64,000 nucleotides of DNA from Chloroflexota bacterium (lineage in GTDB: Bacteria; Chloroflexota; Anaerolineae; JAAEKA01): NCBI GenBank assembly GCA_034717495.1, contig JAYELL010000057.1, forward strand, positions 62,001 through 126,000. The letters run 5' to 3'. Positions 8,370 to 25,431 of the stretch are shown here, piece by piece. The position numbers were made by a program, and so were the translations under genes. Every line of letters starts with the position of its first letter. Position 1 is the first letter of the stretch. The notes below the pieces were generated by a model that worked only from the letters and a program-made list of their open reading frames with translations, did not search any database and was not told the DNA's origin.

Positions 8370-9122
8370 ATGTCAAGACTGACAGAAGGTATTACAAGGT
8401 CGCGGGTCTGGCGATCCTTCTTCCGTCATGGGTGGCCCGATGATGAACTCAACCGTTCGTTGATAATGACCACGAACATCTACTTTCACCTTCATCCCGT
8501 GAAGGTGAACCGCCAAAGCATCAAAGCCACCTACAGTTGGGGCCTGGGTATACTGGCGACCATTTTGTTCATCATCCTGGGGATAACTGGTACCTTGCTC
8601 ATGTTCTATTATGTGCCCTCCACGGAGCAGGCGTATCAGAACATTGTGGATCTCCAAACCAAGGTGTCCTATGGGCAATTGATACGAAATTTCCATCGAT
8701 GGTCTGCCCAGGGAATGGTATTGATCGTTGTGCTGCACATGATGCGCGTCTTTTATACGGGCGCCTACAAACCGCCTAGAGAGTTCAACTGGATTGTTGG
8801 CGTCGTGCTGCTCCTGTTGACCCTGGGAGCCAGCTTCACCGGCTATTTGCTGCCATGGGATCAGCTCTCCTACTGGGCCATTACTGTGGGCACCAATGTC
8901 GCCGGCTACGCACCGGTTGTTGGACCCGATATGCGCATGATGTTGTTGGGTGGTTTTGAGGTTGGCCAGGCGGCCCTGACACGCTTCTACGCCTTGCACA
9001 TTATTGTCATTCCCGGAGCGTTGCTTTTGCTCATCTCCCTGCATCTCTGGCGGGTGCGGAAGGATGGTGGATTGGCAGCGCAGAACAAGATCGATGACAG
9101 CCTGGACATTCGAGGAGATTGA
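8370..9122 (+). CDS. cytochrome b, N-terminal (b6-like) subunit
   Basis: A 250-residue membrane protein with four predicted helices. Two haem-b ligand pairs with 14-residue spacing are visible: FHRW...LHMMR in helix B and ALHI...SLHLW in helix D. The segment GYLLPWDQLSYWA is the conserved quinol-site stretch after helix C. Its length matches split b6-type rather than full cytochrome b. An unusual N-terminal extension of about 30 residues precedes the first family motif. GAGGAG lies before the ATG. It oxidises quinol together with the following subunit and the Rieske protein. Confidence 0.93.
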   Translation: MSRLTEGITRSRVWRSFFRHGWPDDELNRSLIMTTNIYFHLHPVKVNRQSIKATYSWGLGILATILFIILGITGTLLMFYYVPSTEQAYQNIVDLQTKVSYGQLIRNFHRWSAQGMVLIVVLHMMRVFYTGAYKPPREFNWIVGVVLLLLTLGASFTGYLLPWDQLSYWAITVGTNVAGYAPVVGPDMRMMLLGGFEVGQAALTRFYALHIIVIPGALLLLISLHLWRVRKDGGLAAQNKIDDSLDIRGD

Positions 9123-9128
9123 GGCGCT

Positions 9129-9902
9129 ATGAGCGAAGAATCCAACCAGGTCGAAGGACAGGACGAGCGTTTTGCTCGCGGCCCCGTCAAAACCTATAGC
9201 CTGATGGAACTGGTGCGTGGCACCTCGCCCATGGTGGAGAAGGGACCGGACGATACGATCTTTTCCTTTCCCTATGTTGCGATTGTCGAATTGCTGCTGG
9301 TAGTCGGCTCCATCTTTGTTATCGGTTTTCTTTCATTGATACACAATGCACCGCTGGAGGAGCTTGCCAATCCTGATCTGACGACCAATCCGGCCAAGGC
9401 GCCATGGTATTTCATGGCACTGCAGGAACTGCTTCTGCACATGCATCCTGTGCTGGCAGGCATCGTGGTACCGGGAATCGTCATCCTGTTCCTGGTCACC
9501 CTTCCCTATTTCGATGTCGACCGCAGCGATTCCGGACGTTGGTTTGCCACCAGTCGGGGCGCAAAGTGGGTCTTTTTCACAGCCCTCTACACGGTTATTG
9601 TCCAGGCCGCTTTGATTTATTTCGACGAAGTCATGGGGCTGCGTGGTCTTGGAGACGCGTCCCCACTCACATTGCAGATCATCGGTCCGCTGTTGTTTGG
9701 TTTCGTGCTTTTCGTCATTCCTTTGGTGGTAATTGCCTTCAAAAAACCGACTCGCCGGGAGGTAATGATGGTTATCTTTACCATCATTATCACTTCGGCG
9801 ATCACGTTGACTATTAGCGGCTTTCTCTTCCGCGGCCCGGGCATGCACCTCTACCCGCCTTGGGGAATGCCTGATGGCTATAATCCCTGGTCCAGTCTAT
9901 AG
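9129..9902 (+). CDS. cytochrome b, C-terminal (subunit IV-like) subunit
   Basis: A 257-residue protein with a soluble N-terminal 40 residues and about five hydrophobic segments. NPAKAPWYFMALQELL is the family signature near the quinol site; the classic PEWY is PWYF here, as in many menaquinol-using complexes. It starts 6 nt after the b6-like gene. Subunit IV of b6f has three helices and about 160 residues, so this version is longer and resembles the C-terminal part of bc1 cytochrome b. Confidence 0.9.
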   Translation: MSEESNQVEGQDERFARGPVKTYSLMELVRGTSPMVEKGPDDTIFSFPYVAIVELLLVVGSIFVIGFLSLIHNAPLEELANPDLTTNPAKAPWYFMALQELLLHMHPVLAGIVVPGIVILFLVTLPYFDVDRSDSGRWFATSRGAKWVFFTALYTVIVQAALIYFDEVMGLRGLGDASPLTLQIIGPLLFGFVLFVIPLVVIAFKKPTRREVMMVIFTIIITSAITLTISGFLFRGPGMHLYPPWGMPDGYNPWSSL

Positions 9903-9917
9903 CGAGGAGAAGGGAAG

Positions 9918-10406
9918 ATGGAAAAAAACGAGCAGGACAAAAAGGTCAGCCGTCGGCAGTTCTTCGGCATCGCCTGGACTCTGGCACTGATCGCGGCAGG
10001 TGCTCAAGCTCTGGTGGGACTTCGTTCCTTCCTGACGCCGATTCTCGAGGCGGGCGCCTTTGGCACCGTGGTCAAGGCAGGCAGGGTGGATGAGTTCGAG
10101 CTACCATCGGTCAACTATTTTCGGGAAGCCCGCTTCTACCTTGTGCGAAACGAGTTGGGCTTTCTGGCACTCTATCGCAAGTGTACCCATCTGGGCTGTG
10201 TTGTGCCGTGGGATGCGCCTGCAAATGAATTCAACTGCCCATGCCACAGTTCCCTCTTCACGAGGGAAGGCGCGGTCATCAGCGGTCCTGCCCCTCGGCC
10301 AATGGATATGTTCCCGGTGACGATCAAGGACGACATCGTCTTCGTCGACACCGGCCAGGTCGTCGAGCGTACTGCCGTCCATCCCGAACAGATAACCCCG
10401 GTCTAG
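9918..10406 (+). CDS. Rieske [2Fe-2S] protein
   Basis: A 162-residue protein. A twin-arginine motif (SRRQFFG) precedes a single transmembrane helix (about 17-37), so it is a Tat substrate that stays anchored. The cluster motifs are CTHLGC and CPCHSS, giving two Cys and two His ligands and the disulfide cysteines. It takes electrons from quinol at the cytochrome b site and passes them to a cytochrome c. AGGAG precedes the ATG. Confidence 0.95.
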   Translation: MEKNEQDKKVSRRQFFGIAWTLALIAAGAQALVGLRSFLTPILEAGAFGTVVKAGRVDEFELPSVNYFREARFYLVRNELGFLALYRKCTHLGCVVPWDAPANEFNCPCHSSLFTREGAVISGPAPRPMDMFPVTIKDDIVFVDTGQVVERTAVHPEQITPV

Positions 10407-10434
10407 CAGTGGGTTCCGTCGGAGGCGTTTACAG

Positions 10435-11661
10435 ATGAAAGAGCCCAATTACAGTTTCCTTGCCTATCTCGGCGTCGTCCTTACCCTGGCAGCGATCCTG
10501 GTACTCGGACTGTTTTCGCTCAAGCAGCCAGGCCAGATGTACTCGAGCGCCAAAGCCCATGAACATGAAGCCATTGAACGCGGGGATGAAGTCTTCGAGC
10601 ATGACTGTGCGACTTGTCACGGTGTCCATGGCGAAGGAGTTCGGGGAAGTGGACCGGCCTTGAATACTCAGGAGTTCCTGTCGGAAGCTGTCGACGGCTT
10701 GATCTTCAATACCATCACCGATGGACGCCCGGGCACCTCGATGCCTGCCTGGGGCCAGGTGCGGGGTGGACCCTACACGGCGCAGGTCGTCGACGACCTG
10801 GTGGCATACATACGTTCCTGGGAGGCCACCGCACCGTCGGTGGAAGAAATGGTTTTCCAGGGCGACCCCGTTTCTGGCGCCGTGCTCTTTTCAACCACCT
10901 GCTATGCCTGTCATGGTGTGGCGGGAGAGGGAACTGCCGGAGGGGTGGCGCTGAATGATCCGGAGCGCCTGGCCCGCCTGACCGATGATTACTATCGGGA
11001 TACGATCAGGCGGGGCAGACCGGATCGCGGCATGCCAACCTGGGGGTCGGTGTTATCGCCCGAGGAGGTCGAGGACCTGCTGGCTTACATTCGAAGCTGG
11101 CAGATCGAGCCGCCGGCAATCATGGCTGATCTGGGCGGCGATCTTACTCGTGGCAAGGAGATCTTTACCTCTACCTGCGTGGCCTGCCACGGTGAAGGGG
11201 GTATTGGCACTGATCTTGCCCCCAGGCTGGCCGAAGCGCCAGTGTTGAACGATCCTCACCAGGTCCATACGGTTGTCAGTGAGGGGCGGCTGGACAAGGG
11301 AATGCCCAATTGGGGCCAGGTATTGTCACCGGCCGAGATCAATGACGTCGTCGCCTACGTATCTACCTTGAGAGCCGATGGATCGGTCGCCGGGGAGACA
11401 CTGGTCGAAGAGGATGATTCCCTGGACCGGGCCCAATTTCTCTTCCTGCAGCAGTGTGCTGAATGCCACGGCCTGACAGGTGAGGGCAAGGACGATAAGC
11501 CGGCGTTGGTTGACAATGAGTTCGTGCAGACCAACGACGACCAGGCACTTTTCAATATTGTCGCCGGTGGCCGGGCGAATACCGCAATGGAGGGGTTCTC
11601 GGGCGAGTTGAGCGATGAGGAAATCCAGGAGATCATCAAACTGCTTCACACCTGGCAGTGA
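10435..11661 (+). CDS. membrane-anchored tetrahaem cytochrome c (four fused class I domains)
   Basis: A 408-residue protein with one N-terminal transmembrane helix (about 9-30) and four tandem monohaem cytochrome c domains. The haem motifs are CATCHG, CYACHG, CVACHG and CAECHG, and each domain has a distal Met in a GMP, SMP or AME context. GGAGG lies 9 nt before the ATG. As last gene of the operon it probably accepts electrons from the Rieske protein and passes them to a terminal oxidase or soluble carrier. The fourfold repeat points to domain duplication. Confidence 0.88.
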   Translation: MKEPNYSFLAYLGVVLTLAAILVLGLFSLKQPGQMYSSAKAHEHEAIERGDEVFEHDCATCHGVHGEGVRGSGPALNTQEFLSEAVDGLIFNTITDGRPGTSMPAWGQVRGGPYTAQVVDDLVAYIRSWEATAPSVEEMVFQGDPVSGAVLFSTTCYACHGVAGEGTAGGVALNDPERLARLTDDYYRDTIRRGRPDRGMPTWGSVLSPEEVEDLLAYIRSWQIEPPAIMADLGGDLTRGKEIFTSTCVACHGEGGIGTDLAPRLAEAPVLNDPHQVHTVVSEGRLDKGMPNWGQVLSPAEINDVVAYVSTLRADGSVAGETLVEEDDSLDRAQFLFLQQCAECHGLTGEGKDDKPALVDNEFVQTNDDQALFNIVAGGRANTAMEGFSGELSDEEIQEIIKLLHTWQ

Positions 11662-17186: not shown

Positions 17187-17942
17187 CTACATCACCACGC
17201 CGCCGTTGATCATGAGAACCTGACCCGTCAGGAAGCCAGCTGCATCGGAGGCCAGATAAACGGCCACAGCTGCCACGTCTGCAGGCGTTCCCCAGCGCTG
17301 TAAAGGTGTCTGGAGACGCAGTTGTTCGTGCAGGTCCCGGCTGACTTGCTCTCCCCAACCAGTTTCGATCCAGCCAGGTGCCAGGCAATTGACGCGAACG
17401 GTTGGTGCCAGGCCGCGAGCCAGGGCCTTGGTAAAACCCATGATGCCCGCCTTGGCGGCTGCGAAAAGCTGACCGCTCTCTGTGCCTGTGCCACCGTTCC
17501 ATGCTTGATCCCAACCGATATTGATGATGTGACCGGAGCCCTGCTCGGACATTCGAGCCCCAGCCAGGTGAGAACAGAGAACGGCAGCCCGCAGGTCAAC
17601 ATCGAGCAATCGTTGCAGGCGTTCGGCATAGGGAAGGTGAAGGTTTTGCCCGATCAGGATATCGGCGCCAGCGTTGTTGATCCAGATGTCGACCTGGCCG
17701 CCTAGGAGTTGCCAGGCCTGGTCGACCAACGCGGTGATCCCGGAGAGTGTCGACAGGTCCTCCAGCACGACCGGTGCGCGGCGTCCCAGTTGCCTTACTT
17801 GTGAGGCGATTTTAGCGGCAGCATCGGCGTCCCGTCCGTGGATCAGCACGTCGGCACCCTCGGCGGCAAATGCGAGGGCTGTGGCCTCGCCGATACCGCT
17901 GGTGCTGCCGCTGACAACAGCAGTCATGCCCGATAGTCTCAT
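17187..17942 (-). CDS. short-chain dehydrogenase/reductase-like protein with degenerate active site
   Basis: A 251-residue SDR fold. The cofactor motif SGSTSGIG and the NNAG motif are intact, as is the C-terminal TGQVLMINGG. The catalytic YxxxK is FAAAK (Tyr to Phe), and the usual catalytic Ser region reads NIGWDQAWNGG with no Ser at the expected place. It overlaps folP by the ATGA junction, so a link to folate or pteridine metabolism is possible, but the catalytic changes argue against a normal FabG- or FolM-type reductase. Confidence 0.8.
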   Translation of the reverse strand: MRLSGMTAVVSGSTSGIGEATALAFAAEGADVLIHGRDADAAAKIASQVRQLGRRAPVVLEDLSTLSGITALVDQAWQLLGGQVDIWINNAGADILIGQNLHLPYAERLQRLLDVDLRAAVLCSHLAGARMSEQGSGHIINIGWDQAWNGGTGTESGQLFAAAKAGIMGFTKALARGLAPTVRVNCLAPGWIETGWGEQVSRDLHEQLRLQTPLQRWGTPADVAAVAVYLASDAAGFLTGQVLMINGGVVM

Positions 17943-18832
17943 GGGATACCCTGTCCGCCACCCCGGACGATGGCATCGGTCATACGAGCGATTCGGGACA
18001 TCGATTGCACGTCGTGCACACGCACGATATCCGCGCCGCGGTCGATGGCGATCGCTACGGTGGCAGCCGTTCCCTCAAGCCGTTGATCCGTTGGCAGGCC
18101 CAGTGTGTAACCGATGAAGGATTTGCGACTGGGACCCACCAGCAGGGGATACCCGAGATCGCGCAAGGCGTCCAACCGGTCAAGCAATTCCAGGTTCTGG
18201 GCAACCGTCTTTCCAAAACCAAGGCCAGGATCGAGGATGATTTGATCATCGGGGATACCGGCAAGATGAGCCAGTTCGATGCTGATCGCGAGCTCTCGTT
18301 TGATATCCTCGATCAGGTCCTCGTATTCGACGCCGACGTAACGCCCACCCAGAGCTGGGTCGATCCGGGCATGGTCGCGCCGGCTGCGGTTGTGCATCAG
18401 GATAACAGGTGCACCCGCCTGGGCAGCAACGCGGGCTATCGGTGGATCCAGGCGAAAGCCCCAAACATCGTTGACGAAACTGGCGCCAGAAGAGAGCGCG
18501 GCCTCCGCGACCTTTGCCTTGGAGGTGTCCACCGAGATGGGCAGGCTCACCGCTTCTGATAGCCCCCGAATGACAGGGACTACCCTCTGCAATTCCTCAT
18601 CGGTACTCACCGCATCAGCGCCAGGGCGGGTGCTTTCGCCGCCGACATCGAGCAGATGAGCCCCTTCTGCCTGAAAACGCACTCCCTGGTCTATTGCTGC
18701 AGTTATCCAGGCCTCCTTCAGGACCAACCCGTCGCCCGAAAAGCTGTCGGGCGTGGCGTTGATGATTCCCATGACATAGGTCTGGGTGCCCCATTCAAAT
18801 GTGTGTCCTCGGACAATGAGTGATGGTTGCAT
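17939..18832 (-). CDS. folP: dihydropteroate synthase
   Basis: This 297-residue TIM-barrel enzyme condenses hydroxymethyl-dihydropterin diphosphate with p-aminobenzoate in folate synthesis. Signatures: MGIINATPDSFSGDG, DVGGESTRPGA, DPGLGFGKT, GPSRKSFIG and RVHDV, all intact. The ATG at 18832 gives the usual length; an in-frame ATG at 18886 would add 18 atypical residues. It is the first gene of the minus-strand set and is coupled to the SDR gene. Confidence 0.95.
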   Translation of the reverse strand: MQPSLIVRGHTFEWGTQTYVMGIINATPDSFSGDGLVLKEAWITAAIDQGVRFQAEGAHLLDVGGESTRPGADAVSTDEELQRVVPVIRGLSEAVSLPISVDTSKAKVAEAALSSGASFVNDVWGFRLDPPIARVAAQAGAPVILMHNRSRRDHARIDPALGGRYVGVEYEDLIEDIKRELAISIELAHLAGIPDDQIILDPGLGFGKTVAQNLELLDRLDALRDLGYPLLVGPSRKSFIGYTLGLPTDQRLEGTAATVAIAIDRGADIVRVHDVQSMSRIARMTDAIVRGGGQGIP

Positions 18833-18908
18833 CGTACTTTGGTGTGACTGGCGGACCTGGTGGCTGATAGCCAGATTTGGGGCCAAACGGCGATAGATGG
18901 CTCAGATA

Positions 18909-19033: not shown

Positions 19034-19062
19034 TTGACAGCACAATCGGCCTGTGTTATAGT
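19034..19062 (+). promoter_or_regulatory. sigma-70 promoter of the B12 capture operon
   Basis: TTGACA (19034-19039), a 17-nt spacer and TATAGT (19057-19062). Transcription would begin near 19069, just before the riboswitch. Confidence 0.75.
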
Positions 19063-19090
19063 CACCTTGATTGAATTAATAACTGAATGA

Positions 19091-19401
19091 TTTAGGCCGT
19101 TAGTGGTGCCCTAAGGCCCGATGCCCGGGGCATAAAGGCGAAGCCGGTGGCACGTGTGCTGTACCGACCGAAAGGCTGTGCACGTGGAGTCCGGCGCTGT
19201 CGCGCAACTGTGATCTGACGGATAGCATTTTTCAACGAGCTATCCCAAGTAAGCCAGGACGACCGCCACTTAACGCCCGCCAACAGACCTTCGCATGAAA
19301 GGAGGGCGGATCTTAGCCAAAAACAGGTTAGCAAATCCTTCGCAGGATGCCTACCGCATAAGATCAACACCAACGCCCGACCCTCCGTCGGGCATTTTTT
19401 G
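19091..19401 (+). ncRNA. cobalamin riboswitch with intrinsic terminator
   Basis: The aptamer core is visible as GAAGCCGGTG (about 19140), AGTCCGGCGCTGTCGCGCAA (ends 19206) then CTGTGA, and the B12 box AAGCCAGGACGACCGCC (19251-19267). About 38 nt, including CACGTG on both sides, are inserted between GGTG and TCCGGC, where most members have only a few bases. The expression platform ends in a terminator: GCCCGAC (19375-19381) pairs with GTCGGGC (19387-19393), followed by a T-run. B12 binding should stop transcription before the operon at 19430. Confidence 0.85.
19375..19401 (+). terminator. riboswitch-controlled terminator
   Basis: A 7-bp GC stem with a 5-nt loop (CCTCC), followed by A and a run of six T. 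It lies 30 nt before the first ATG of the operon. Confidence 0.75.
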
Positions 19402-19429
19402 TGCATTTTCAAGGAGCAAGGAACAGGAT

Positions 19430-21682
19430 ATGAAACCCAAGACGGCTGGCGCACGTTTTGTCAGAGTGGCAATGATTGCCGCCACTTTGAGTATTACGTT
19501 CTTTCTCGTCATCATGCTGCAGAGCAGCATGGCTGGTGAGCTAACTACCGAGGATATCAATCGGGCTGACGTCGTGGTCGATCTGGGTGATGGTCATAGT
19601 ATCACCCAGCGTGTTTCTTTTTCGACCACCCAGATTTCCGGTCTCGAGGCGCTGCTGCGCACTGGTCTCAATGTCACCACCGCTGAATTTGGCTTCGGTA
19701 CGGCTGTCTGCGCCATCGAAGGGGTCGGGTGTCCTGCCACCGATTGTTTCTGCGAAACAGAAAATTTCTGGGGGTACCAATACTGGGAGGAGGGCGGTTG
19801 GCAATCATACATGGTCGGCGCCGCTGATTCCAACGTGAGCGATGGCGGCGTAGAAGGTTGGGCGTGGGGACCCTTTGGCAATACACCACCTGCCATCACC
19901 TCCGAGATCCTGGCTGCCAATGCGGCGCTGCAATGGATCGCACCCCAACAGGAGACCGATGGCAGCATTGGCCACAACGTGGGCGCGACGCTGGATGTGA
20001 TCCTGGCTGTAGCCGCAGCCAACCAGGATCCGGTGACCTGGCGATCGTCTGAAGGTGAATCGCTTGTCGACTACGTCAAAGCGGAGGGAAGCGTCTATGC
20101 CGGTCAAACAGCCGCAGGTGCCGGCAAGATGGCCGTGGGAGCAGCCGCAGCCCATCAAGACCCTGCCGCCTTCGGCGATCTGGATCTGGTCGACATACTT
20201 GACGGCCACTACGATTCCGGCACAGGCGCTTTCGGTGCGAACAACCAGGATCAGGGCTTTGCTCTCCTGGGGTTGGCGGCTGCTGGTGAGATGGTGCCCG
20301 AAGCAGCGGTCCAGCGGCTTGTCAATGACACCAACCCCGACGGCGGCTGGGGCTGGGCCGGCGGCGTTCCCAGTGATGTCGACAGCACGTCACTGGTCAT
20401 CGAGGCGTTGATTGCCGCCGGGCAATCGGCAACGTCGACAGTCGTCGTGAATGCACTGGACTACCTTCATGATGTTCAGATGACCAACACGGACGGTGGG
20501 TTTGCCTCTTCCCCCGACCAACCCTGGGCGGTTGACAGCAACACCAACTCGACAGCCTTTGCCGTGCAGGCCATTTTGGCAACGGCGGGGGATCCATTGA
20601 GCAACGCCTGGGCGATCAGCAATACCCATCCCATTGGCTTTTTGTTGGGGCAGCAGCTGCCTGACGGCGGCTTCGTGTATGTGGACCCACCGGCTAATCT
20701 CTTTGCCACGCAACAGGCTCCCCCGGCGCTGGTTGGCAAGCCATTTCCCCTGTTGAGCCGGGCCGTTGCACAGCGCAGGGCCCTGGCCTGGATGGATGGC
20801 CAACAGCAGGCAGATGGCAGCTTTGCGGGCTTCAATCCCGGGGCCACCATTGATGCGGTTTTTGCGATCGTGTCCGCCTCACAGAATCCCCTCGACTTTG
20901 TCAGCAGCCAGGGCAATACACCGCTGGACTATCTGGCGATAGAGGGGCCTGCTTACGCGGCTCAGGGCGCCAACGCTGCTGGAAAACTGACACTGGGTGT
21001 CGTTGCTGCCGGCCTTGATCCTGGCAATTTCTCAGGTATCAACCTTGTGGATGTGCTCTGGGGCTACTTTGCACCCGCTACCGGCCAGTTCGGCGCTGGC
21101 ACGACGTGGGATCAGGCCTTTGCCATGCTTGGCCTGGTTGCTGCAGGAGAGACGCTTCCCGACGAGGCAGCCCAATACCTGCTGGACATCCGATCAGCCG
21201 GCGGCGGCTGGGGCTTTACCGCCAATTCTGACACGCCTGAGGTTGACAGCACGTCAGTATCCCTGCAGGCATTGGCGGCGACGGGCGTCAATCGACAGAA
21301 TGAAGGTGTCGCGGATGGCCTGGCTTTCCTGTATTCCCAGCAAAATCCAGATGGAGGCTTTCCCGGCTTTGGCGGTGAGACCAGTCCAGGCTCCACCGGA
21401 CTGGCTCTTCAGGCGATAGCGGCCTGCGGTGAGTCCCCGGTTGATCTGAGCTGGACCAGGATTGTCACCGACGGCACATCGAGCCGGTTGACTCTGCGCA
21501 CACCGTATGACAGCCTGCTGGTCATGCAGAGTCCCGAGGGTGGCTTTCCCGGCTATACTGGCTCCAACGATCCCTTCTCTACCTATCAGGCCCTTCCTGG
21601 GCTGGCCTTCAAGGCACTGCCTCTTAGCCCTCCGGGCAGGGTATTCTTCCCGGTTGTCGGGGTAGTAATGGCCAACCGGTAG
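19430..21682 (+). CDS. secreted transcobalamin/intrinsic-factor-like cobalamin-binding protein (DUF4430-like plus two alpha/alpha barrels)
   Basis: A 750-residue exported protein. A signal peptide (about 10-35) is followed by a DUF4430-like beta domain (about 40-150; CFCETENFWGYQYW and GGVEGWAWG). Two homologous halves of helical repeats follow, about 165-445 and 455-735, each with prenyltransferase/transcobalamin-type repeats (QQETDGSIG, GGWGWAGG; QQQADGSFAG, GGGWGF, QNPDGGFPGF). Transcobalamin and intrinsic factor bind B12 between an alpha6/alpha6 barrel and such a beta domain; here the order is reversed and the barrel duplicated. AAGGAG precedes the ATG. The B12 riboswitch strongly supports cobalamin as ligand. 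The C-terminus has a weak hydrophobic stretch and no sortase motif. Confidence 0.8.
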   Translation: MKPKTAGARFVRVAMIAATLSITFFLVIMLQSSMAGELTTEDINRADVVVDLGDGHSITQRVSFSTTQISGLEALLRTGLNVTTAEFGFGTAVCAIEGVGCPATDCFCETENFWGYQYWEEGGWQSYMVGAADSNVSDGGVEGWAWGPFGNTPPAITSEILAANAALQWIAPQQETDGSIGHNVGATLDVILAVAAANQDPVTWRSSEGESLVDYVKAEGSVYAGQTAAGAGKMAVGAAAAHQDPAAFGDLDLVDILDGHYDSGTGAFGANNQDQGFALLGLAAAGEMVPEAAVQRLVNDTNPDGGWGWAGGVPSDVDSTSLVIEALIAAGQSATSTVVVNALDYLHDVQMTNTDGGFASSPDQPWAVDSNTNSTAFAVQAILATAGDPLSNAWAISNTHPIGFLLGQQLPDGGFVYVDPPANLFATQQAPPALVGKPFPLLSRAVAQRRALAWMDGQQQADGSFAGFNPGATIDAVFAIVSASQNPLDFVSSQGNTPLDYLAIEGPAYAAQGANAAGKLTLGVVAAGLDPGNFSGINLVDVLWGYFAPATGQFGAGTTWDQAFAMLGLVAAGETLPDEAAQYLLDIRSAGGGWGFTANSDTPEVDSTSVSLQALAATGVNRQNEGVADGLAFLYSQQNPDGGFPGFGGETSPGSTGLALQAIAACGESPVDLSWTRIVTDGTSSRLTLRTPYDSLLVMQSPEGGFPGYTGSNDPFSTYQALPGLAFKALPLSPPGRVFFPVVGVVMANR

Positions 21683-21708
21683 CGGTTTGAACGCCAACAG
21701 AGCTTAGG

Positions 21709-24027
21709 ATGAAACAGAGTCGCCAGGTGCAAAAAAACTCTCGCCGTCAGCAAGCTGGCCCCCATTGGGGCGGGCCTCTGCCGGCGCGCCTGGCGACCCT
21801 GGTAGCGCTGGCATTGTTGCTTCTGGCATTGCCAGGCAGCGCAGGGGCCCAGGAGGCGTTTCCCCACCACGCTGGCCTGGTCATCGACTTCGGGGATGGC
21901 GCTGTCTATTCTGCCTGCGTCGACCTTGGGCCCGACGGTGAAGCCACCGGTGAGGAGGTGCTCCAGGCGTCCGGTTTCGATCTGCTTATCGAGTACAGCC
22001 CGATGGGTGGCGCCGTCTGCAGGATCGACCAACAGGGCTGCGACTTTCCTGGCCAGCCCTGCTGGTGCGAATGTATGAGTTCTCCCTGCGTGTATTGGGC
22101 CTACAATCACCTGGTGGATGGGCAGTGGGTCTATTCCAGCGTGGGAGCGAGTGTTTTCACCGTTCAGACCGGTGGAGTGGAAGGCTGGGCATGGGGTGAA
22201 GGCTCCATCAGCGTAGGGGCGGCACCGGCCCTCATCTCCTTCGATGACATCTGTGAAGCGCCGACGGCGACTACGACGCCATCGGCGACCCAAAGCCCAA
22301 CGCCGACGGCTACCAGTACCTCTGTGCCGACCGAGACGCCGACCGCAACTGCTACGCAAAGGCCCACATCTACCTGGACCCCTGAACCAAACAATACGCC
22401 GCTGCCAACCACAACCTGGACCGCAACCCCAACATCGGCCTGGACCCCGCTGCCTGCGGACACGCCGTTGAGCCAGGCAGTGACTATCGATACAGCTACT
22501 CCCGTTCCTACTGCTACATGGACAGCTTCGCCTACGCCATTGCCAACGGAGCCGCTGCCCCCCTCGCCCACGGCGACCGCCGTTGACCAGCTGATTGCTG
22601 CGGTGCCTGCCGGTCTTGCGCCACCAGGGTCCGGCGATCAGAGACGCATAGTCAACGCCGGCAATAGGATAGAGAGAACGTTTTTGCCACTGCTTGCGTA
22701 TAGCCGTCCGATCGATAATCCTGCGCCGGCAGTCATCCCTCCGGCTCCCCTATCCGCGGCCCTGTCACCTCGCGTCCCCTCCACGCAGATCGAGGGGAAT
22801 GTTTCTGAGCCGGCACCGCAGGCACAGGCCTCTGGCAAGGTAGTCGTGAGGCAAGACGATCTGACCCTGGTCAAATTCAGTCGTGAGCCGGCGCGTCTGC
22901 TCAGGCTGGAACCTTCTGAAACTCAGGGCCATGCCCTGGCTCATGCCCAGTCGAGCCAGACCCGGGCCGCGGTCGATTTTTCTGCCACCCTGTTGATGGT
23001 CGCTGGATTAGCGCTCATTTCCATTGTCATTCGTTGGATTGGGAGAGGCAGGCCGCTGCGACCACATCCTACTATCCGAACATCGATCCCTGTGGGGAAG
23101 TGGCAAGGGTCACTATCCACGGGCGCCAAAACATCGCAGACAATCAGCCTGATTATCTACGGCCTGGCGGCAGCTATCGGGGTCCTGGCGCTGATCTCTC
23201 CCTTTTTAGGAACGGCGATCGAGGCCACTGGCATAACGGCTGGGCCCACCGGCAATGGCCCGCTGTTGTTGATGCTGTTGATCGGGTTGGCTTTCACCGC
23301 GCTGCTCCTGGACATCCAGAGCCAGGCCGTTACCAGTAAAACAATGGCCCTGTTGGGTGTGTTGGTGGCGATCAACGCTGTGCTTCGTTTTGTCGAGGTT
23401 GGCATACCCGGGCCTGGTGGCTTCAGCCCGGTGTTCTTCCTCATCATCATGACCGGCTATGTTTTTGGTGGTCGCTTTGGTTTTTTGATGGGATCGTTGA
23501 CCATTCTGGTGTCAGCCCTGATCACTGGCGGTGTGGGCCCCTGGCTGCCGGGACAGATCTTTGCCGCGGGATGGGTAGGTCTGACGGCGCCGCTCATGCG
23601 TCCTGTGGTTCGTGTTGTCGGTGGACAACCGGGCAGTTGGCGCGAGGTGGTGGCACTGGCGGTTTTTGGCGGTCTTTGGGGTTTGCTCTTCGGTTTGATC
23701 ATGAATCTATGGTTCTGGCCCTTTATGGCAGGTCCTGCCGATCAGTACTACCAGGCGGGTCTCGATCTTTCCAGCACGATTCAACGGTACCTCACTTTTT
23801 ACCTGACAACCTCCCTGATATGGGATCTGCTTCGCCTGGCAGGCAACGCGCTGTTGATTCTGGTCTTTGGTGCAGCAACCCTGCGAGCGCTTCGGCGATT
23901 CCAGCTTCGCTTCGATTTCGACTATCAGCCCATTCCCGAGGATGAATTCGCTGGAATAAATCGCCCGGTCGGGGGTGCTGCTCCTGCGCCCTTGATGTCG
24001 TGGCAGGGTCGGGAGGGCACCCTGTGA
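21709..24027 (+). CDS. DUF4430-like domain fused to an ECF transporter S-component
   Basis: A 772-residue protein. After a signal helix (about 25-48) comes a second DUF4430-like domain (about 50-175; CWCECMSSPCVYW, GGVEGWAWG). A Thr/Pro-rich linker spans about 184-297. A transmembrane helix lies near 424-445, and an ECF S-component-like domain with about six helices covers 465-740 (ALLGVLVAINAVLRF, then GYVFGGRFGFLMG). It is 26 nt behind the transcobalamin-like gene. It may receive B12 from that protein, or bind it with its own beta domain, and pass it to the membrane. I know of no described fusion of this kind. Its last bases overlap ecfT. Confidence 0.75.
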   Translation: MKQSRQVQKNSRRQQAGPHWGGPLPARLATLVALALLLLALPGSAGAQEAFPHHAGLVIDFGDGAVYSACVDLGPDGEATGEEVLQASGFDLLIEYSPMGGAVCRIDQQGCDFPGQPCWCECMSSPCVYWAYNHLVDGQWVYSSVGASVFTVQTGGVEGWAWGEGSISVGAAPALISFDDICEAPTATTTPSATQSPTPTATSTSVPTETPTATATQRPTSTWTPEPNNTPLPTTTWTATPTSAWTPLPADTPLSQAVTIDTATPVPTATWTASPTPLPTEPLPPSPTATAVDQLIAAVPAGLAPPGSGDQRRIVNAGNRIERTFLPLLAYSRPIDNPAPAVIPPAPLSAALSPRVPSTQIEGNVSEPAPQAQASGKVVVRQDDLTLVKFSREPARLLRLEPSETQGHALAHAQSSQTRAAVDFSATLLMVAGLALISIVIRWIGRGRPLRPHPTIRTSIPVGKWQGSLSTGAKTSQTISLIIYGLAAAIGVLALISPFLGTAIEATGITAGPTGNGPLLLMLLIGLAFTALLLDIQSQAVTSKTMALLGVLVAINAVLRFVEVGIPGPGGFSPVFFLIIMTGYVFGGRFGFLMGSLTILVSALITGGVGPWLPGQIFAAGWVGLTAPLMRPVVRVVGGQPGSWREVVALAVFGGLWGLLFGLIMNLWFWPFMAGPADQYYQAGLDLSSTIQRYLTFYLTTSLIWDLLRLAGNALLILVFGAATLRALRRFQLRFDFDYQPIPEDEFAGINRPVGGAAPAPLMSWQGREGTL

Positions 24028-25103
24028 TCCATCCGGGGGCATGGTTGGCATGGCTGGTGGCTGCCATCGTGGCCCTGTCAGTTACCCGCAATCCCGCTTA
24101 CCTGTTTTTCATTTTGGGTGCTATCGCAATCACCGTGGCTGTGCTTCGCCCCCACTCCAAGGCGCCACCCCTTCCCATGTCCCTTTGGCGGTTTGGCCTG
24201 ATCATCGTAGTGTTTTCTGCCCTGTTCAATGCCTTCACCTCTCATTTTGGAGCGACAGTGCTGTTCAGCCTTCCGGAATCCTGGCCTCTCATCGGCGGAG
24301 AAATCACCCTTGAGGGGCTGGTCTTTGGTGTCCTGAACGGCCTGGTGCTGGCAGGCTTTCTCGCTGCCTTCACCGTTCTCAACCTGGCACTTCCGGTTCA
24401 CTCACTGGTCCGGATGATCCCGAGGGCCTTTTACCCGGTTGCAGTGGTCATTTCTATCGCCGTGGCCTTTGTGCCCAACACCCTGGCCCAGTTCCAGGCC
24501 GTGCGTGAGGCCCAGACCATGCGGGGACACCGGGTTCGGGGTCTGCGGGACTGGTTACCCCTCTTCATGCCGGTGCTGATTGGGGGCCTGGAACGGGCTA
24601 TGCAACTGTCAGAGGCCATGACAGCCCGCGGCTTTGGCGGTACGGGGTTGGATTCCAGGAGCGATCAAAACAGACGTGGTCTGCTTCCGGTCCGTCTTTC
24701 GCTTTTGACCGGTCTTTTTTGCGTGTTAGCTGGTCTTGCCCTGCGCTTGTTTGGCGTATCGATGTCCGGTACCCTGCTCCTGTTGGCTGGCAGTGCACTT
24801 CTGATTCTCGCTCTGTGGATGCAAGGGCGCGGTGTCCGGCGCACCGTGTATCGCCCTGCCAGATGGGTTCTCCATGACTGGTTCGTTCTCGTGGGTGCTG
24901 CCCTCGTCGCGGTTGTTTACCTGTTCCCCCTGCCCGGTCTCGATCGTTCTTCCCTGCATTACTCTCCCTATCCTCTCCTCAGTTGGCCCGATCTAAACTC
25001 GTGGATAGTTCTGGCGACGGCGGGATTGTTGGTGCCGGCCAGCATCCTGGCACGGGCCAGTTTTCGGCGCGATCCGCTGCGTCCCGACGGGGCCAGTGCC
25101 TGA
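24024..25103 (+). CDS. ecfT: ECF transporter transmembrane (T) component
   Basis: A 359-residue membrane protein with about seven hydrophobic segments. The coupling-helix motifs are QTMRGHR and MTARGFGG, the two Arg-Gly motifs that contact ECF ATPases. The GTG at 24024 overlaps the preceding TGA (GTGA) and has GGAGGG about 8 nt upstream; the GTG at 24000 is less likely. It is last in the B12 operon. No EcfA ATPase is encoded here, so the module must borrow ATPases from elsewhere. The C-terminal 120 residues (three more helices) are longer than in typical EcfT. Confidence 0.85.
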   Translation: MIHPGAWLAWLVAAIVALSVTRNPAYLFFILGAIAITVAVLRPHSKAPPLPMSLWRFGLIIVVFSALFNAFTSHFGATVLFSLPESWPLIGGEITLEGLVFGVLNGLVLAGFLAAFTVLNLALPVHSLVRMIPRAFYPVAVVISIAVAFVPNTLAQFQAVREAQTMRGHRVRGLRDWLPLFMPVLIGGLERAMQLSEAMTARGFGGTGLDSRSDQNRRGLLPVRLSLLTGLFCVLAGLALRLFGVSMSGTLLLLAGSALLILALWMQGRGVRRTVYRPARWVLHDWFVLVGAALVAVVYLFPLPGLDRSSLHYSPYPLLSWPDLNSWIVLATAGLLVPASILARASFRRDPLRPDGASA

Positions 25104-25431
25104 TTTTTCTGCAGTACTCAAACGCGTGTACGGGCAACCCATTCCTGGCAACTTCGATCTCGGCCAAACGATTTCCGTACCTCGCACCATGTACCTCAGC
25201 TAACCATCGGTCTGAGAATGGGTCGCCCCTACCGTTGACTTCCCCACGAATGCCAACCAGATGACGCTGGTCATGGAGGGGTATGACCGCGGGCACTATT
25301 GCCGGCGGTCTGTCTCTGTTATGATGGACTCGTAGATTGTGGAAAAGCCATACAATGCCGCGTTTGTGGCATGATCGAATTGAAGACGGAGGTGACGCAG
25401 GCTGCCTTGTCCCTAATGGAGGAGAATGACG
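25104..25431 (+). promoter_or_regulatory. gap with conserved palindromic element (site A, 25269-25299) and -10 (25320-25325)
   Basis: No gene is visible. GGTCAT-N8-ATGACC (25269-25288) is followed by GCGGGCACTAT and, after 20 nt, TATGAT. The same arrangement, with identical spacing, is found at 34226-34282. It is probably the promoter/operator region of the exporter operon at 25432. A lone GGGTCGCCCCTAC-like string lies near 25221. Confidence 0.55.

Follow-up and report, generated by a model that had tools for sequence, protein, structure and literature searches.

The stretch of DNA analysed here (the window: 64,000 nucleotides of contig JAYELL010000057.1 from a Chloroflexota bacterium) contains a three-gene operon that we interpret as a vitamin B12 (cobamide) scavenging system of the transcobalamin-like SLBB (beta-grasp) type, in which extracellular capture would feed an energy-coupling factor (ECF) importer. 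We put the probability of this reading at about 0.87. An earlier note, made from the letters of the sequence, had proposed this kind of transcobalamin- or intrinsic-factor-like B12 capture, and the features that we computed favour it: a cobalamin riboswitch with its terminator, the predicted domain folds, an S component homologous to CbrT, the conservation of the operon among relatives, an orphan EcfA gene, and an apparent auxotrophy indicated by missing biosynthesis and BtuF genes. All window features described below lie on the plus strand unless stated otherwise.

The operon is under a cobalamin riboswitch, as the earlier note had claimed, and the regulatory region in front of it has its elements in the order expected of riboswitch control. 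A sigma-70-type promoter (19034-19062; TTGACA N17 TATAGT, matching 11 of 12 consensus positions, with a TG preceding the -10 as in extended -10 promoters) is followed by a complete cobalamin riboswitch aptamer (RF00174, 19087-19284), which scores 55.1 bits (the gathering score is 31.5), covers model positions 1-189 of 189, and is the sole copy in the 5.0 Mb assembly. Between the aptamer and gene 1 is an intrinsic terminator (19375-19393) with a 7-bp GC-rich stem followed by TTTTTT, likely the expression platform of an OFF switch, and then a ribosome-binding site (AAGGAG) and the ATG at 19430. The listed open reading frame begins at 19295, but this is probably wrong because it would place the terminator inside the gene, and the ATG at 19430 behind AAGGAG is the likely start.

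The nature of the substrate is indicated by gene 2 (21709-24027), which codes for a 772-residue fusion of a signal sequence, a beta domain (21859-22215) of the same clade as that in gene 1, a linker rich in proline, threonine and serine, a transmembrane anchor for the beta-domain half (22963-23049, with basic residues on the cytoplasmic side), and an S component (PF12822; 23260-23937). The S-component fusion that had been proposed, with its partner not spelled out, is thus a fusion behind a second copy of the beta domain, carried on a stalk in which half of the residues are Pro, Thr or Ser. When the PDB was searched with a family profile of the S component there was one significant match, 6FNP (E 2.9e-8), which is ECF-CbrT, the vitamin B12 transporter of Lactobacillus delbrueckii (PMC5997447). 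Gene 3 (24000-25103) overlaps the end of gene 2 and encodes the EcfT/CbiQ transmembrane component, also as anticipated. The anchored beta protein has 2 transmembrane segments, the S component about 6, and the fusion 8, which points to a simple gene fusion behind gene 2; at one related locus (L039) the beta and S genes overlap, a near-intermediate to the fused arrangement.

The host appears to need B12 that it does not make. There are 14 matches to B12-binding domains in the genome, and in the assembly, which is 95.6% complete, we found no CobB/CobQ over the cut-off, no CbiG, and no Peripla_BP_2 protein of the BtuF class. The host is therefore apparently a B12 auxotroph and, with the reservation that assembly completeness imposes, the operon would be its main B12 supply. 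The MetH activation domain (PF02965) was likewise not found in the genome, but we give this no weight, given the many B12-binding domains.

These same data bear on the alternative that the operon imports a precursor or relative of B12 (cobinamide, other cobamides, or a lower-ligand base), or cobalt, instead of cobalamin. B12-regulated ECF systems do exist for cobalt (CbiMNQO) and for the lower-ligand nucleoside (CblT) (PMC8123684, PMC2667541), and Burroughs et al. allow for 'B12 or its precursors' as the ligand (PMC1796856). We nonetheless think this unlikely, because the S component matches CbrT and neither CbiM nor any other S component of solved structure, because a genome with no recognised late-corrin biosynthesis is ill-suited to the import of cobalt or a base, and because a trap of this size, with two domains, fits a ligand that is itself large.

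The association of these genes with one another and with the riboswitch is widely conserved. Homologues are present in 35 of the 60 relatives searched, and a cobalamin or adenosylcobalamin riboswitch is found at 25 of the first 29 homologous loci. In 24 of these the riboswitch shares the strand of the matched stretch and is 173-429 nt upstream of it, and the remaining locus was matched through its downstream beta gene; among the four loci with no riboswitch nearby, two begin at a contig end, L036 has one farther upstream, and L037 is without one. The riboswitch is also present at four of five loci tested from Actinobacteria and Acidobacteria (L163, L170, L173 and L176). The usual layout in relatives is of separate genes for a barrel protein, one to three beta proteins, EcfT, a double EcfA, and the S component. 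EcfT and EcfA are both within the operon in most relatives outside the window's own family, and it is in this family that the operon no longer includes EcfA and has its beta protein joined to the S component in a fusion. The earlier note had suggested that the tandem barrels could bind two ligands; the numbers of barrel and beta domains per operon vary (1:1, 1:2, 2:2, 2:1, 3:2 and 1:3), with no fixed ratio.

Searching with the S component recovers loci from Caldilineales, Chloroflexales, Anaerolineaceae, Thermomicrobiales, Dehalococcoidia, Acidimicrobiia, other Actinobacteria, and an Acidobacterium, and among 31 loci with wide flanks there is a barrel in 24 and a beta domain in 22, although these loci and the first homologous loci are partly on the same contigs (e.g. 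L099 and L035) and are not fully independent. Of 396 genomes in the class, about half give a match, which is an upper bound because the weakest matches are probably to ordinary toroid proteins. In one genome (G020; L041 and L042) there are two riboswitch-linked beta-barrel genes on different contigs, with ECF genes beside one of them and the contig end close to the other. At L030 a Group II intron match (RF00029, 28-176) is located just 5' of the riboswitch-barrel locus.

The candidate trap is the product of gene 1 (19430-21682), a 750-residue protein with a signal sequence and no C-terminal membrane anchor. Its beta domain (19544-19890, residues ~39-155) is a cysteine-rich (C..GC..CFC) beta-grasp domain with a hairpin insert that we place in the transcobalamin-like SLBB clade, and it is followed by two alpha/alpha barrels of the squalene-hopene cyclase/prenyltransferase type, the first with 12 helices in the model (19904-20758) and the second with 40% identity to it (20759-21631). 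This agrees with the previous description of a secreted protein with a beta domain and two helical barrels. Using AlphaFold with a 96-sequence alignment, the beta domain and barrel 1 are predicted to form a single compact unit with a predicted local distance difference test score (pLDDT) of 96.2 and a predicted template modelling score (pTM) of 0.91; the high pTM over the two domains indicates a fixed arrangement, and the barrel/beta unit that was to be looked for by structure prediction is present in the model. Without an alignment, the AlphaFold model of the entire mature protein (716 residues) was unusable (pLDDT 35).

The modelled beta domain has strands at 6-13 and 19-26, a helix at 33-38, a hairpin at 44-49/52-58, and further strands at 75-82, 85-88 and 102-109. 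This beta-beta-alpha-[hairpin]-beta-beta-beta order is the topology described for transcobalamin (PMC11107200, PMC1796856). Foldseek searches with the model of the beta domain and barrel 1 recover transcobalamin (4ZRP, E 1.5e-4, rank 41; 7QBF, E 1.7e-4); because the domain order differs from that of transcobalamin, this sequential aligner matches one domain at a time and gives no joint alignment of the two. The reversed order had been thought unusual, but it is ordinary: both orders were reported in 2007 (PMC1796856), and both exist among the relatives, with the barrel preceding the beta domain in L114, L118, L120 and L170.

Several observations weigh against the B12-scavenging reading. In both sequence and fold the barrel is nearer to the toroids of squalene-hopene cyclases and prenyltransferases than to transcobalamin; all of the above-cut-off Pfam matches to the barrels are to SQHop_cyclase or Prenyltrans, and terpene cyclases head the Foldseek ranking. 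The Cobalamin_bind family (PF01122) matches just 6 of 42 barrels, with a best E of 6e-5, and neither of the barrels in the window. None of 45 beta domains is matched by Pfam DUF4430, HMMER searches of Pfam and the PDB gave no match between the beta-domain sequence and transcobalamin, and the sole PDB match of a DUF4430 profile, although it is to transcobalamin-1, is weak (E 0.14). Finally, the genes that appear to be absent from the host may sit in the missing part of the assembly.

The barrel relationships could be explained if gene 1 encoded a secreted terpenoid or squalene-hopene-cyclase-like enzyme, with the riboswitch reflecting some other B12-dependent process. We consider this very improbable. 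The DxDD motif of the cyclases is present in just 4 of 103 family barrels, and the two in the window read DVDS and EVDS; moreover, the protein is exported together with a beta domain and is an operon-mate of a CbrT-type S component and EcfT, the barrel gene in relatives often precedes separate beta, EcfT, EcfA and S genes, and nearly all copies are preceded by a cobalamin riboswitch.

The beta domain is related to DUF4430, although this is visible by profile-profile comparison only, and the earlier description of the domain as DUF4430-like therefore stands at this level and fails at the level of Pfam. We compared a beta-domain profile with one built from the true DUF4430 domains of Dehalococcoidia-type genomes, for which hhalign gives a probability of 92% (86% on a re-run with other column rules); 200 column-shuffled profiles gave no more than 8.5%, and unrelated profiles 0.3%. 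It is this DUF4430 profile whose one PDB match, weak as given above, is to transcobalamin-1, and transcobalamins are themselves described as containing DUF4430 (PMC4350170). In sister operons of the Dehalococcoidia type, a true DUF4430 protein with a lipoprotein-like N-terminus fills the beta slot (barrel-DUF4430-EcfT-EcfA-S), and the S component is of the same family as that in the window. These sister B12 ECF operons are represented by L091-L096, of which L093 and L095 have fusions of a barrel with a DUF4430-like domain in the transcobalamin order; there is no cobalamin riboswitch above the gathering score at L091-L096, and their regulation may therefore differ.

The best NCBIfam matches are below the cut-off and are to SCO2321 (NF053823) for the barrel and SCO2322 (NF040672) for the beta domain. 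An Actinomycetes barrel at locus L176 scores 205 bits to SCO2321_fam and has a cobalamin riboswitch 5' of it and EcfT, EcfA and S genes 3'. By these comparisons the window proteins would be diverged members or sisters of the SCO2321 and SCO2322 families.

In the window no ATP-binding cassette (ABC) ATPase gene adjoins the operon, and at the same-family loci L032-L035 there is no adjoining gene of the EcfA kind. A fused, double EcfA is encoded elsewhere in the genome (G000:C6:21027-22688; locus L079:9016-10740) among unrelated genes. It is 63% identical to one B12-operon EcfA, and its median identity to 52 operon EcfAs is 55%, against 51% when the operon EcfAs are compared with one another and 35% for the second double ATPase of this genome. 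The orphan is also located apart from the operon in four of the five genomes of the same family, with 69-71% identity, and the fifth genome is just 72% complete. We infer that it pairs with the EcfT and S components of the operon to complete an ECF module (EcfT, EcfA, EcfA'). That the importer is instead non-functional or degenerate, the operon having lost its EcfA gene, would account for the lack of an adjoining ATPase but is exceedingly unlikely, as all reading frames of the three genes are intact and a double EcfA orthologous to those of the operons persists.

For the B12-scavenging operon we envisage the following mechanism, in which the binding of B12 by the beta and barrel domains, its sequential hand-over, the OFF-type regulation, and the pairing with a distant EcfA are the steps that we infer. 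At low intracellular coenzyme B12 the riboswitch would let RNA polymerase pass the terminator, and the gene 1 product would be exported as a soluble or wall-associated two-domain trap, with cobalamin held, as it is by transcobalamin and intrinsic factor, between its beta-grasp domain and an alpha/alpha barrel. The second beta domain, encoded by gene 2, would stand on its flexible stalk at the outer face of the membrane, covalently joined to the CbrT-type S component, where it could receive or cap the captured B12 such that it is concentrated beside the S component and handed to the importer. Uptake would be powered by EcfT (gene 3) together with the double EcfA encoded elsewhere.

In transcobalamin and intrinsic factor the beta domain binds B12 first and the barrel then closes (PMC11107200, PMC5599065), and their domains, when separate, come together only on B12 (PMC5599065). 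The many relatives that encode barrel and beta domains as separate proteins would fit such ligand-driven assembly. A more elaborate proposal, which we offer tentatively and with the odds against it, is that of a tethered receptor-importer: the stalked beta domain catches B12, the gene 1 protein closes over it in a B12-dependent manner (the two barrels matched to the two beta domains, possibly with two B12 per complex), and the CbrT-type S component takes the ligand over without an intermediary. The system might then be a living relative of the machinery behind animal intrinsic factor. We know of no ECF transporter with a tethered-receptor mode of substrate delivery.

The general idea was published in 2007, and this is a known yet uncharacterised kind of system. 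Burroughs et al. predicted that secreted proteins with SLBB and alpha/alpha toroid domains are B12 scavengers, whether the toroid comes before or after the beta domain; some have a second paralogue, they are encoded in operons with CbiO/CbiQ, and their hosts lack B12 synthesis. The authors also predicted that such bacterial proteins are the source of animal transcobalamin (PMC1796856). The window shares with that clade the secreted SLBB and toroid, the hairpin insert after the helix, a paralogous second SLBB, an operon with CbiQ (and CbiO in relatives), and a host apparently without key B12 biosynthesis genes. It differs in being beyond the reach of Pfam DUF4430, in its conserved cysteines (C..GC..CFC), in the fusion of the second SLBB to an S component, in its tandem toroids, in having EcfA encoded elsewhere, and in the control of the operon by a cobalamin riboswitch. 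Neither Chloroflexus nor Streptomyces is named in the text of the 2007 paper (PMC1796856).

Similar comparisons can be made with other systems. Mammalian transcobalamin, intrinsic factor and haptocorrin share the 12-helix alpha/alpha barrel and the beta-grasp domain with hairpin insert, here predicted to form a compact two-domain unit, and the relatives with separate barrel and beta proteins parallel the B12-driven domain assembly of the mammalian carriers (PMC5599065); unlike these carriers, gene 1 has the order beta-barrel-barrel, no above-cut-off PF01122 match, and a predicted delivery to an ECF importer rather than by receptor endocytosis. ECF-CbrT (6FNP, PMC5997447) has an S component of the same family and a homologous EcfT, but the S component in the window has a beta domain attached to it and shares its transcript with a secreted trap. 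In 2013 Sun et al. described B12 transporters of Chloroflexi that are controlled by cobalamin riboswitches (PMC3766115). In Lacticaseibacillus rhamnosus, a Firmicute, a protein is annotated as 'Additional lipoprotein component of putative cobalamin ECF transporter' and a DUF4430 protein is encoded beside rtpR (PMC9963975); this lipoprotein is likewise tied to a cobalamin ECF transporter, but by annotation only, and the passages concerned mention neither a barrel partner nor a fusion to an S component. The SCO2321 (NF053823) and SCO2322 (NF040672) families of Actinobacteria, although the closest in NCBIfam, have no assigned function. For CbrT, we know of no extracellular capture domain.

Some features at the periphery of the operon are also recorded. 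Upstream, at 17939-18886 on the minus strand, is a gene for a pterin-binding enzyme, probably dihydropteroate synthase, and downstream, at 25426, is an HlyD-type protein gene belonging to an unrelated export cluster. A short hydrophobic motif (Y/F-L/F-P-V/L plus a tail) ends several large proteins, with the forms RVFFPVVGVVMANR, LFLPVVNGR, VFLPLITRQ and YLPLVVRNS; it is located at 21640-21680 in the window (the C-terminus of gene 1), at L052:11209-14430 and 8401-11163, and at the end of L114:2297-4960, and may be a signal for C-terminal sorting or anchoring in Chloroflexota. The barrels at L163:5526-6854 (Actinobacteria bacterium IMCC26256) and L170:5489-7189 (Acidimicrobiia) have sub-threshold matches to C-terminal sorting domains of the LAVTG/GVDTG type, which suggests that the trap is wall- or membrane-anchored in Actinobacteria.

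We found no characterised bacterial intrinsic factor in the literature beyond the 2007 prediction and statements at the level of annotation. What is new here is a divergent clade of cysteine-rich beta domains spanning Chloroflexota and Actinobacteria and including SCO2321/SCO2322, the assignment of the S component to CbrT, the fusion of a beta domain to an S component, and the relocated ATPase. SCO2321 and SCO2322 of Actinobacteria gain a likely function, and the 2007 prediction becomes testable, since the riboswitch, trap, S component and ATPase are all defined in one lineage, which seems to be dependent on them for B12. ECF transporters normally have no binding protein, and the operon provides an entry to asking how such a transporter is fed by an extracellular one, as well as to the origin of animal B12 carriers from bacterial ones.

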